A DNA stretch of 64,000 nucleotides from Agromyces protaetiae (lineage in GTDB: Bacteria > Actinomycetota > Actinomycetes > Actinomycetales > Microbacteriaceae), in contig NZ_CP133018.1 of assembly GCF_030866785.1 (NCBI RefSeq), forward strand, positions 1,054,001-1,118,000, given 5' to 3'. The position numbers and the translations under genes were made by a program. Shown one piece after another: positions 58,421-61,737 of the stretch. Numbering within the stretch: the stretch's first letter is position 1; each line of letters starts with the position of its first letter. The notes beneath the pieces are model-generated. The model saw only the letters and a program-made list of their open reading frames with translations. It made no database searches and was not told where the DNA came from.

Positions 58421-59239
58421 TCAGCTGATCTTCTTCCGGTAGATCGCGACCGCGAACCCGTAGGCGACGACGAGGATGCCGACGAGCCACGCGAGCGCGA
58501 TCCAGATGTCGCCGCCGACGGGCTGGCCCGCGAACAGCGCGCGGATGGTGTCCACGATCGAGGTCACGGGCTGGTGCTCCGCGAACCACGCGACCGGCGC
58601 CGGCATCGAGTCGGTCGGCACGAACGCCGAGCTGATGAACGGCAGGAAGATCAGCGGGTAGCTGAACGCGCTCGCGCCGTCGACGGTCTTCGCCGAGAGC
58701 CCCGCGATGACCGCGAGCCAGGTCAGCGCGAGCGTGAACAGCACGAGGATGCCGACGACCGCGAGCCACGCGAGCACCGAGGCGCCCGTGCGGAACCCCA
58801 TCAGCAGGGCCACGCCGACGACGATCGCCATGGACGCGAGGTTCGCGACCAGCGACGTGAGGACGTGCGCCCAGAGCACGCTCGATCTCGCGATCGGCAT
58901 GGACTGGAACCGTTCGAAGATGCCGCCCTGCAGATCGAGGAACAGCCGGTACGCGGTGTACGCGACACCCGACGCGACCGTGATGAGCAGGATGCCGGGC
59001 AGCATGTAGTCGACGTACGACTCGCCCGATCCCGTGTTGATCGCCCCGCCGAGCACGTAGGTGAACAGCAGCATCAGCGCGATCGGCGTGACCGCGGTGG
59101 TGATGATGGTGTCGGGGCTGCGCAGGATGTGCCGGAGCGAGCGGGCGGTGAGGATACCGGTGTCGCCGAGGACGTGCGTGGTCATCGAGGTCTCCTTCTT
59201 CGAGGTGGGTTCGGTCGCAGCGGGGAGGGTGGTGGTCAT
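58421..59239 (-). CDS. ABC-2 type exporter permease (DrrB-like)
   Basis: 272-residue membrane subunit with six helices; the ABC-2 signature region is GGIFERFQSMPIARSSVLWAHVL (about 106-128). Start overlaps the ATPase stop by four bases. With its ATPase it probably exports a small hydrophobic molecule or antibiotic. A second Met (MTTHVLGD) 18 codons in is an alternative start. Confidence 0.93.
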   Translation of the reverse strand: MTTTLPAATEPTSKKETSMTTHVLGDTGILTARSLRHILRSPDTIITTAVTPIALMLLFTYVLGGAINTGSGESYVDYMLPGILLITVASGVAYTAYRLFLDLQGGIFERFQSMPIARSSVLWAHVLTSLVANLASMAIVVGVALLMGFRTGASVLAWLAVVGILVLFTLALTWLAVIAGLSAKTVDGASAFSYPLIFLPFISSAFVPTDSMPAPVAWFAEHQPVTSIVDTIRALFAGQPVGGDIWIALAWLVGILVVAYGFAVAIYRKKIS

Positions 59240-60066
59240 CGGTCTGCTCCTTCACGTGCGTCGTCGAGCCCGGGCTCGACGGGTGTCTCGGCCGGCTCGG
59301 CCTCGCCCACGAGCGCGAGGAACACATCCTCGAGCGAGGGCTGCTTCTCGACGTACTCGACCTTGGCGGGCGGCAGCAGCTGCTTCAGCTCGGCGAGTGT
59401 GCCGTTCTGAACGATCGTGCCGCGGTGCAGGATCGCGATGCGGTCGGCGAGATGCTCGGCCTCGTCGAGGTACTGCGTGGTGAGCAGCACGGTCGTGCCG
59501 CCCTCCGCAAGCTGCTTCACGGTCTGCCAGACCTCGAGACGAGCCTGCGGGTCGAGCCCGGTCGTCGGTTCGTCGAGGAAGATCACCGATGGGTTTCCGA
59601 TCAGGCTCATGGCGATGTCGAGCCGTCGGCGCATGCCGCCGGAGTACGTCGCCGCGCGCCGGCCGCCGGCGTCGGTGAGGGCGAATCGTGCGAGGAGCTC
59701 GTCGGCGATCGCCTCCGGGCGCTTCACGTGCCGGAGCTTCGCGACCAGCACGAGATTCTCGCGGCCGGTGAGCACCTCGTCCACGGCCGCGAACTGGCCG
59801 GTGAGGCTGATGGCGTTGCGGACCCGGCCGCCCTGGGTCGCGACGTCGAGGCCGTCGACGGTGGCGGTGCCGGCGTCGGCCTTCAGCAGCGTCGAGAGGA
59901 TGCGCACGACGGTGGTCTTGCCGGCGCCGTTCGAGCCGAGCAGGGCGAAGATGCTGCCGCGCTCGACGTCGAAGTCGACGCCGCGCAGCACGTGCAGCGT
60001 CTCCTTCTTCTGCGGGTAGGACTTCTCGAGGCCGCGGACGCGGATGGATGGGGCTGATATGGTCAT
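59236..60066 (-). CDS. ABC exporter ATPase (DrrA-like)
   Basis: 276-residue ATPase with the drug-resistance layout: Walker A GSNGAGKTT (about 43-51), signature YSGGMRRRLDIAMSL (about 141-155), Walker B VIFLDEPTTGLDP and a C-terminal DrrA-type tail (LPPAKVEYVEKQPSLEDVFLALVG). It is 168 nt downstream of the DUF4097 gene on the same strand. Confidence 0.95.
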   Translation of the reverse strand: MTISAPSIRVRGLEKSYPQKKETLHVLRGVDFDVERGSIFALLGSNGAGKTTVVRILSTLLKADAGTATVDGLDVATQGGRVRNAISLTGQFAAVDEVLTGRENLVLVAKLRHVKRPEAIADELLARFALTDAGGRRAATYSGGMRRRLDIAMSLIGNPSVIFLDEPTTGLDPQARLEVWQTVKQLAEGGTTVLLTTQYLDEAEHLADRIAILHRGTIVQNGTLAELKQLLPPAKVEYVEKQPSLEDVFLALVGEAEPAETPVEPGLDDAREGADR

Positions 60067-60234
60067 GATTTCGTCCAGTTCTCTGATGGCTGATGGAACG
60101 TGGTGGGTGAGGTGGGCGGTGCGCGAGGGCGCACTCGGCGGTCCCGCCTGCGGACGTGCTTGGTCCGGCGGGTCGAGCCTCGAAGGGCGGTGGTGCCGCT
60201 GGTGCGCTCGCGCAGCGCGGCCGGCGGAGAGCGG

Positions 60235-61101
60235 CTAGCGCGTGGGCGCTCGGTCGGGTCGGCGGATCAGGATGTCTCCCCAGTTGGATCGGGCGCGGAG
60301 CTCGACGGTGCTCTCGTCGGCGCCCGGTGCATCCGATGGCGTCAGCATGTTTCGCACCGAGCCGTGCTCGCTCGAGACGTCGAGCCACGCGGCGGTGGCT
60401 TCGCCGATGCCGACCTCGATCGTGCCGTAGCCGGTCTCGAGCTGCGCTTCGCCGCCGTCGATGCGTTCGACGACGATCGCGCCGTAGGCGCTCTTGGCGG
60501 TGACCCGGCCGCGGGCGTTCTGGATCATGATGTCGGCGTGCGCGCCATGCACGGTGAGCGCGCCGGTCACCTCGCCGATGGTCGTGGTGCCGTTCGGGTT
60601 CTTGATGACGGCCTCGCCCGCGAGCTCGCGGATGCGGATGCTGCCGGCCGGCGTGTTGATCTCGACCGCGCCGGTCGCCCGACCGATCGTGACCCCGCCC
60701 GCGGGGGTGCGCACCGTGACCCGCTCGGCCTCGTCGATGCGCACATCACCCGAGCCCGTGCGATAGCTCACGGCGCCGAGGGCGCCTTCCGTGAGAAGCC
60801 GGCCCGAGCCCGAACTGCCGTGCAGGTCCGACCCCTCGGGCACCTCGATGGTGACGTCGACGGCGCCGGAGTTGCCGAACGGGGCGAGCATCCGCCAGCT
60901 CTTGGCCGTGTGCACCGTGAGCACGTCGCCGACCAGCTCGATCTGCGCCTCGGCCGCGGCCTTGACGTCACCGGCCTTCTCGGGGCGCAGCGGCACGATC
61001 GTGACGACGGTGTCGGTGCGTTCGCTCGCGACGACGCGCAGGTCGCTCCAGGCGAGGTCGACGTCGAGGGCGATGGGTCGGGGAGTGTCGAACGTGGGCA
61101 T
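60235..61101 (-). CDS. DUF4097 beta-repeat protein
   Basis: 288-residue protein made of parallel beta-helix-type repeats (DUF4097/DUF4098): repeated VTI/V..G..GAV..NTPAG units through about 60-250. No signal peptide is visible, so it is probably cytosolic or associated with the exporter. GAAGGAGG precedes the ATG. Members of this family are often encoded next to RHH regulators and ABC exporters, as here. Confidence 0.9.
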   Translation of the reverse strand: MPTFDTPRPIALDVDLAWSDLRVVASERTDTVVTIVPLRPEKAGDVKAAAEAQIELVGDVLTVHTAKSWRMLAPFGNSGAVDVTIEVPEGSDLHGSSGSGRLLTEGALGAVSYRTGSGDVRIDEAERVTVRTPAGGVTIGRATGAVEINTPAGSIRIRELAGEAVIKNPNGTTTIGEVTGALTVHGAHADIMIQNARGRVTAKSAYGAIVVERIDGGEAQLETGYGTIEVGIGEATAAWLDVSSEHGSVRNMLTPSDAPGADESTVELRARSNWGDILIRRPDRAPTR

Positions 61102-61126: not shown

Positions 61127-61654
61127 TCAGCGCACCCAGCCGGTGACGCGGTTCGCGTCGCCGCCGGCGGGTGTCGAGGATTCGGGGCGCCGCGCGGGGG
61201 CGGGCTCGACGGCGGCGGCGATCGCGCGCACGAGCCAGGTGTTGACGGAGACGCCGTCGCGCGACGCGGCCAGCTCGACCTGGGTCTTGAGCTGGTCGGG
61301 CAGACGGAGCGTGGTGCGGCTCGTCGACGTCTCGTCGAACGCGATCGAAGCGGATGCCTCGGGCCGGGCCTCGGCCGGCACGACTTCGTCCGCGGCGCGG
61401 AACGCGGGCGGCACCGCTGCGGTCACGATGAACTCCGGGTCGCGCCCGCGGAGTCGGACGTCGACCGAACCCGGCGCGAGTTCGGCGGTGATCTCCGCGG
61501 CGGCCGCGGTGAGGGCCTCGAGGAGCATGAGGCGAGCGGATGCATCGAGCGGGGCCGTGAGGCGCTGCGCGAGCTCGGTCGCCTGCTCGCCGCCGGCCTC
61601 GGCCGCGATCGAGAGTTGGCGCTGGAGTTCGTCGACGTATCCCGTGAGGTCCAT
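61127..61654 (-). CDS. Ribbon-helix-helix regulator with N-terminal helical domain (HicB/DUF-type)
   Basis: 175-residue protein. The C-terminal RHH domain reads SRTTLRLPDQLKTQVELAASRDGVSVNTWLVRAIAAA (about 118-154, given in two parts in nature: beta strand TTLRLP, then helices). The N-terminus is helical. Start at 61654 follows a TTGACA/CACCAT promoter without ribosome site. RHH proteins bind direct or inverted short repeats; six TGGTGTCA octamers overlap its own start. It is the first gene of the DUF4097-ABC exporter operon, so it likely autoregulates it. Confidence 0.88.
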   Translation of the reverse strand: MDLTGYVDELQRQLSIAAEAGGEQATELAQRLTAPLDASARLMLLEALTAAAAEITAELAPGSVDVRLRGRDPEFIVTAAVPPAFRAADEVVPAEARPEASASIAFDETSTSRTTLRLPDQLKTQVELAASRDGVSVNTWLVRAIAAAVEPAPARRPESSTPAGGDANRVTGWVR

Positions 61655-61737
61655 GACACCATGGTGACACCACCATGGTGTCATGTCAAGAGAAGTGGTG
61701 TCAGAAAATCAGAAAAATGGTGTCACGAGTGGTGTCA
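61654..61737. promoter_or_regulatory. Six-site octamer operator array with promoter of the RHH-DUF4097-ABC operon
   Basis: Octamers TGACACCA at 61654 and 61665 and TGGTGTCA at 61676, 61696, 61718 and 61730. Start spacings are 11, 11, 20, 22 and 12, near one or two helical turns, so all sites face roughly the same side. Minus-strand TTGACA (61689-61684) and CACCAT (61666-61661), 17 nt apart, place the promoter inside the array; transcription would start at or next to the ATG at 61654. Confidence 0.85.

Follow-up and report, generated by a model that had tools for sequence, protein, structure and literature searches.

MetJ, an RHH regulator, binds 8-bp self-complementary met boxes, one RHH dimer to each, which are arranged in tandem arrays through which it also regulates itself; an arrangement of this kind is proposed here. 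The omega (ParB) protein of pSM19035 likewise binds as RHH dimers, one per WATCACW heptad, and is described as binding single sites weakly and two repeats strongly (PMC9499535). An operon encoding an RHH transcription factor, a Toastrack protein, an ABC ATPase and a permease was reported in Actinobacteria by Ravi et al. 2024 on the basis of gene neighbourhood (PMC11237479). The operon type is therefore already published; neither "operator site" nor "binding site" occurs in the main text of that article, and no report of the operator of an RHH-Toastrack-ABC operon was found in the literature searched.

Such an operon lies in a 64-kb stretch of Agromyces protaetiae DNA, which was analysed as a whole and is referred to here as the window. 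Six exact copies of TGGTGTCA occur between positions 61654 and 61737 (Table), and no further exact copy is present in the 64 kb. The original prediction described six octamers with start spacings of 11, 11, 20, 22 and 12, and an exact search of the window returned the same coordinates and spacings. By a first-order Markov estimate at 70% G+C, 0.9 exact copies of TGGTGTCA would be expected in 64 kb, whereas clusters as dense as the array would be expected about 1e-17 times per window, in agreement with the earlier claim that the chance expectation is far below one. This figure makes an accidental or low-complexity repeat barely conceivable, and the conservation of the sites in the relatives sampled refutes it. 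Pattern searches of the organism's own 4.18 Mb genome found same-direction TGGTGTCA pairs with at most 30 bp between them inside the array only, and no converging pair within that distance. The diverging arrangement TGACACCA-N3-TGGTGTCA, searched with an N3 gap and at most one mismatch, occurred once in the genome, and that occurrence is the array. It was also claimed that the array extends over the promoter and start of an RHH gene; it does span both, down to the start codon. The array is very probably a docking array for the adjacent, little-studied RHH regulator, because many other actinobacteria show this layout in front of their related regulator gene.

Table. Features of the octamer array, the promoter and the operon. 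Positions are those of the window; numbers with a sign take the A of the RHH gene ATG as +1.
Feature	Position	Strand	Remarks
Octamer 1 (TGGTGTCA)	61654..61661	-	-7..+1; ends on the A of the start codon
Octamer 2	61665..61672	-	-18..-11; terminal CA forms -12 and -11 of the -10 element
Octamer 3	61676..61683	+	-29..-22; with octamer 2 forms the core palindrome TGACACCA-N3-TGGTGTCA in the -35/-10 spacer
Upstream octamer	61696..61703	+	starts at -49 in gene direction; class -49..-52 holds 37/79 upstream sites
Upstream octamer	61718..61725	+	starts at -71; class -71..-73 holds 10/79 upstream sites
Upstream octamer	61730..61737	+	starts at -83; class -81..-84 holds 6/79 upstream sites
-35 element TTGACA	61684..61689	-	abuts octamer 3; TTG at -37..-34 in 147/160 promoters
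-10 element CACCAT	61661..61666	-	17 bp from -35; A-11 and T-7 in 149/160 promoters
Start codon ATG	61652..61654	-	residue 1 in 19/19 aligned orthologues; putative transcription start
RHH regulator gene, 175 aa	61127..61654	-	PF05534 (HicB), 21.3 bits, cut-off 21
N-terminal domain, residues 1-82	61409..61654	-	two helices and a beta hairpin in the AlphaFold2 model, mean pLDDT 90.5
C-terminal RHH domain, about residues 111-150	61205..61324	-	from profile, alignment and model
Predicted DNA-reading strand RTTLRL, residues 113-118	61301-61318	-	within the RHH domain
Toastrack (DUF4097) protein	60235..61101	-	PF13349, 41.4 bits, cut-off 22.9
ABC ATPase, DrrA-like	59236..60066	-	PF00005; best NCBIfam match TIGR01188, 275.6, below cut-off 312.45
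ABC-2 permease, DrrB-like	58421..59239	-	PF01061; 4-bp overlap with the ATPase gene

A scan upstream of orthologous operons, which the original prediction had named as a check, found the octamers there and so did not refute it. In 133 of 160 RHH-family promoters, three TGRYRYCA octamers are present at about -29, -18 and -7, each with at most one mismatch. These promoters were drawn from two sets. The first comprises 100 promoters, 20 from related genomes and the best 80 of at least 594 relatives in named genomes. A sequence search had found the RHH gene in 21 of 120 related genomes, own included; from its matches L025 was dropped as a probable non-orthologue (E 4e-4) and L024 as a second piece of the L026 gene, which gave the 20 promoters. 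The second comprises 60 loci of the class, chosen by hand from 137 genomes with a match, and omits all of family f21, whose sequences resemble those of Streptomyces relatives, as well as some others. The start of L017 was shifted to the ATG beside the match, and L152, which belongs to the second set, was taken with GTG. No pair of promoters across the two sets came within 10 of 100 bases of each other, and no protein was identical.

In the first set, slots 1, 2 and 3 held an exact TGRYRYCA in 81, 85 and 89 of 100 promoters, respectively (a 1-nt shift being allowed in slot 3). All three slots were exact in 64 promoters and within one mismatch in 84, and the remaining 16 had a slot with two or more mismatches. 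The corresponding numbers for the second set were 45, 50 and 46 of 60 (1-nt shifts in slots 2 and 3), with 25 promoters exact throughout, 49 within one mismatch and 11 with a slot at two or more. Seven rearranged control motifs of equal composition never filled the unshifted slots of the second set, and the three slots stand out by their high information across the 100 promoters of the first set. A phylum search added 30 loci from the best of 56 genomes, one of them (L005) the window's own. Three (L143, L145, L149) were excluded as partial or broken and 26 were read, two of which (L125, L129) duplicate the promoters of L059 and L092; the trees omit L141, L142, L146 and L147, whose starts are uncertain or which have no octamer. 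Octamers are present at the start in most of these 26 more distant loci, L138, L140, L144, L148 and L150 among them, and in 5 of 26 no octamer was found near the assumed start, in part because start codons are uncertain. Within the genus itself a match was found in 7 of the 59 other genomes searched, one of them weak, and the operon is therefore patchy even among close relatives. Five genomes (G714, G717, G733, G746, G851) have two RHH-family matches each.

The promoter elements are interlocked with the octamers. CACCAT, which starts with the CA of octamer 2, runs through the 3-nt spacer and closes with the first T of octamer 1, is a poor -10 element; the commonest hexamers at -12..-7 among the 160 promoters are CATAGT (35) and CATGAT (31). 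The distance from TTG to this hexamer, in the 147 promoters that have the TTG, is 17 bp in 66, 18 bp in 78 and 19 bp in 3. ATG is the start codon in all 100 promoters of the first set. An in-frame ATG at 61684 lies upstream of the conserved RHH start. An SD-like word was present between -20 and -4 in just 1 of 160 promoters, and this together with the position of the -35 and -10 elements indicates that the RHH gene is probably leaderless, with transcription beginning at about the A of the ATG. The gene that follows in the window, encoding the DUF4097 protein, has an SD-like AAGGAGG. Leaderless transcripts are described as common in mycobacteria (PMC4633059).

The position of the start also bears on whether the repeats might act in RNA, as a hairpin for translational control or attenuation, as the inverted repeat of the core could suggest. 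Transcription from the ATG, as the promoter spacing implies, would include just one base of octamer 1. Adjacent sites in relatives are, by reading, often non-complementary, and the phasing of the sites matches the DNA helix, so that a role in RNA is hardly credible.

The protein encoded behind this promoter combines two domains. The PF05534 match has no stretch that passes the cut-off alone. The beta-strand, helix, helix fold of the RHH domain is present, and the model aligns with the RHH domains of PutA, Arc, CopG and AtaR. For the model of residues 1-82 no convincing match was found. At least 7273 proteins match the RHH family at E of 0.001 or below; the names among the matches listed disagree and include histidine kinase, HicB antitoxin, YlcI/YnfO, CopG, transposase-like and hypothetical, with others. 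The RHH gene has the DUF4097 gene on one side and, by ORF reading, a gene for a CoA-binding-like protein on the other. Compared with the LiaG equivalog profile, the Toastrack protein scored 25.2 bits, below the cut-off of 285, and the drrA and drrB subfamily cut-offs were not reached by the exporter proteins (TIGR01188, see Table; TIGR01247, 51.2 vs 223.05). A 168-bp gap (60067-60234) separates the DUF4097 and ATPase genes, and the operon is tightly spaced elsewhere. The linkage is conserved: a tblastn search with the window's proteins, to which diverged exporters would be invisible, covered the 70 loci having more than 4.2 kb of downstream sequence and detected DUF4097 in 69 of them, the ATPase in 59 and the permease in 58.

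The predicted DNA-reading strand of the RHH domain has the pattern R-x-[T/S/N]-x-R, and R113, T115 and R117 are invariant in an alignment of 19 orthologues. The middle residue is associated with the third base of the half-site. Proteins with Thr or Ser have at least 45% TGA half-sites in 107 of 111 distinct promoters (107/111 also with duplicates), and those with Asn have mostly TGG half-sites (less than 45% TGA) in 58 of 64 (60/66 with duplicates). Residue type and half-site base thus agree in 165 of 175 distinct promoters, counting those with at least two sites and with the 45% cut set after the values had been seen. A tree places 7 inferred residue changes and 10 operator-class changes, and these include one well-supported independent pair; the relationship is for this reason called an association and not a proven co-change. 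Shared ancestry or genome base composition could also be its cause. If the recoding is true, changing T115 to Asn should shift preference from TGGTGTCA to TGGTGCCA, which has the TGG half-site.

As a class, TGRYRYCA is self-complementary, and octamers are often fully symmetric (TGACGTCA, TGGCGCCA); for these reasons each octamer would probably serve a single RHH dimer as a complete site. Where asymmetric octamers occur in 105 promoters of Thr/Ser proteins from the two sets, slot 3 points one way in 49 of 55 and slot 2 the opposite way in 53 of 64. The inverted-plus-direct pattern is therefore a real bias, since asymmetric forms favour one direction per slot. Even so, the description of the array as two inverted and four direct sites says less than it appears to, the class being self-complementary.

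The core palindrome is found almost solely at the RHH gene. Gene-blind searches, covering the TGGTGTCA form, looked for TGACACCA-N3-TGGTGTCA: with at most one mismatch allowed, 15 of 120 genomes had it, at 15 places, and with none allowed, 19 of the 396 genomes searched in the order had it, at 19 places. Four places are common to both searches, which gives a total of 30. At 28 of these 30 places the palindrome adjoins the start of an RHH orthologue, which lies exactly 29 bases on in 23. One exception (L212) is within a large reading frame that resembles a nonribosomal peptide synthetase, a label taken from ORF reading, and the other (L223) is within an RHH gene whose own promoter has a palindrome with one mismatch.

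The tie of the RHH protein to the octamers rests on sequence comparison, and a different regulator, encoded elsewhere, might bind them, with the RHH gene as just its target. The near-restriction of the palindrome to the RHH gene would be odd under such an arrangement; strand residue and half-site base also agree across promoters, and multiple phased short sites are what RHH dimers would be expected to occupy. Binding by another regulator is accordingly considered very unlikely.

Octamers continue upstream of the core in register with the helix. In the first set, 79 octamers lie upstream of -42, and besides the classes given in the Table, 19 of them are at -60..-63 and 7 are elsewhere, down to -110; shuffled sequence gave a mean of 1.3 upstream sites. 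Their phasing has R=0.79 at 10.5 bp (n=79), whereas 2000 random draws reached at most 0.34, with related promoters treated as independent. Upstream sites of the second set gave R=0.82 at 10.7 bp (n=53) and a random maximum of 0.42 in 5000 draws, again with related promoters as independent. The helical phasing proposed for the array of the window itself holds for the first five sites (offsets 0, 11, 22, 42 and 64), but not for the sixth, whose offset of 76 misses a strict 10.5 bp lattice by a quarter turn. That octamer still lies within the -81..-85 class of the relatives. The phasing is compatible with cooperative binding, which the original prediction pictured as filament-like.

Further octamers are found at a distance. 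Of the 78 loci whose upstream DNA was long enough, 21 (L063, L071, L119 and 18 others) carry at least three between -320 and -112, in distal arrays of three to five octamers each. The carriers all belong to Streptomyces, Kitasatospora or Actinacidiphila, genera of the Streptomycetaceae. In the distal region 107 octamers were counted in the 78 loci vs 0 to 4 for seven control motifs, and the commonest step from site to site is 10 bp (32 of 68 spacings over all loci). That the distal array loops to the proximal one is a guess. A word resembling GCAGGTCA recurs at about -90 in Streptomyces, between the distal and proximal arrays (L068, L072, L103, L108 and others).

The phased octamers upstream of the -35 element and the distal arrays would also suit a protein that binds the array and mainly activates transcription, or one that organises DNA or acts in partition. 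Precedents exist in that AmrZ, an RHH protein, is described as activating as well as repressing, and omega as partitioning plasmids (PMC9499535). Nevertheless, the three best-conserved sites are on the spacer, the -10 element and the start codon, where a bound protein blocks polymerase, and the palindrome searches found one place in each matching genome, nearly always beside the RHH gene. A mainly activating or partition-like role is therefore very unlikely.

The original prediction of an operator array serving the neighbouring RHH regulator is well supported by comparative genomics through the register of the sites, their phasing, the near-exclusivity of the palindrome and the residue-base association. 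With good confidence, the protein can be viewed as a cooperative autorepressor acting on its own leaderless promoter at the head of a Toastrack/ABC-exporter operon. It would repress the regulator, the Toastrack protein and the DrrAB-like ABC exporter together. One RHH dimer would occupy each TGRYRYCA octamer through its beta ribbon, and at the three core octamers, which follow in 11-bp steps, dimers would cover the region from the -35/-10 spacer across the -10 element to the first base of the start codon. These core dimers would share one face of the helix and so block RNA polymerase at the leaderless promoter, and cooperativity would increase with additional dimers bound at turns farther upstream. 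A signal, received through the N-terminal helix-helix-hairpin domain or relayed by the Toastrack protein, may then release the dimers and turn on export. Binding by the RHH protein, repression over activation, the leaderless start and cooperativity are what we infer as the best reading of the locus, as are the signal and the exported cargo.

A broader proposal can be offered tentatively. The RHH family would be phylum-wide in actinobacteria, and almost the whole of its leaderless promoter would be its own operator: octamers of the palindromic class in 11-bp steps would fill the spacer, contribute most of the -10 element and reach the start codon, whose first base they would supply, and more octamers would lie in helical register. 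In Streptomycetaceae a second array, mostly of 10-bp repeats and 120-200 bp upstream, would be joined to the first by looping or bridging. Thr/Ser or Asn would recode the third half-site base, giving a natural specificity series.

A conserved operator gives a testable function to a large and variously named family as well as a way to find its operons. The natural residue-base pairs are material for learning how RHH strands read DNA, and the array also flags an exporter/Toastrack envelope system.

To our knowledge, omega is without an N-terminal domain like that of the window's RHH protein. The met boxes of MetJ abut at 8 bp, whereas the octamers described here follow at 11-bp steps that would place dimers on one face, and MetJ has a regulon and an S-adenosylmethionine corepressor, unlike the window's system. 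A feature common to omega and MetJ operators is present here: at least two short, regularly spaced sites at the target promoter. HicB and YlcI/YnfO proteins have a similar C-terminal RHH domain, and the window's protein is just above the PF05534 cut-off, but it differs from them in its extra N-terminal domain, its place at the head of an exporter operon and its score below the cut-off of NF041551. The array resembles that of omega, which is described as binding many short sites, direct or inverted, over target promoters including its own (PMC9499535). However, the omega sites are contiguous, non-palindromic 7-bp repeats, and those found here are TGRYRYCA octamers of a palindromic class in 10-11 bp steps; omega is described with a ParA partition partner and no exporter operon, in contrast to the exporter operon here (PMC9499535). 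In gene content, the operon of the window is of the same kind as that described by Ravi et al. 2024 (PMC11237479).
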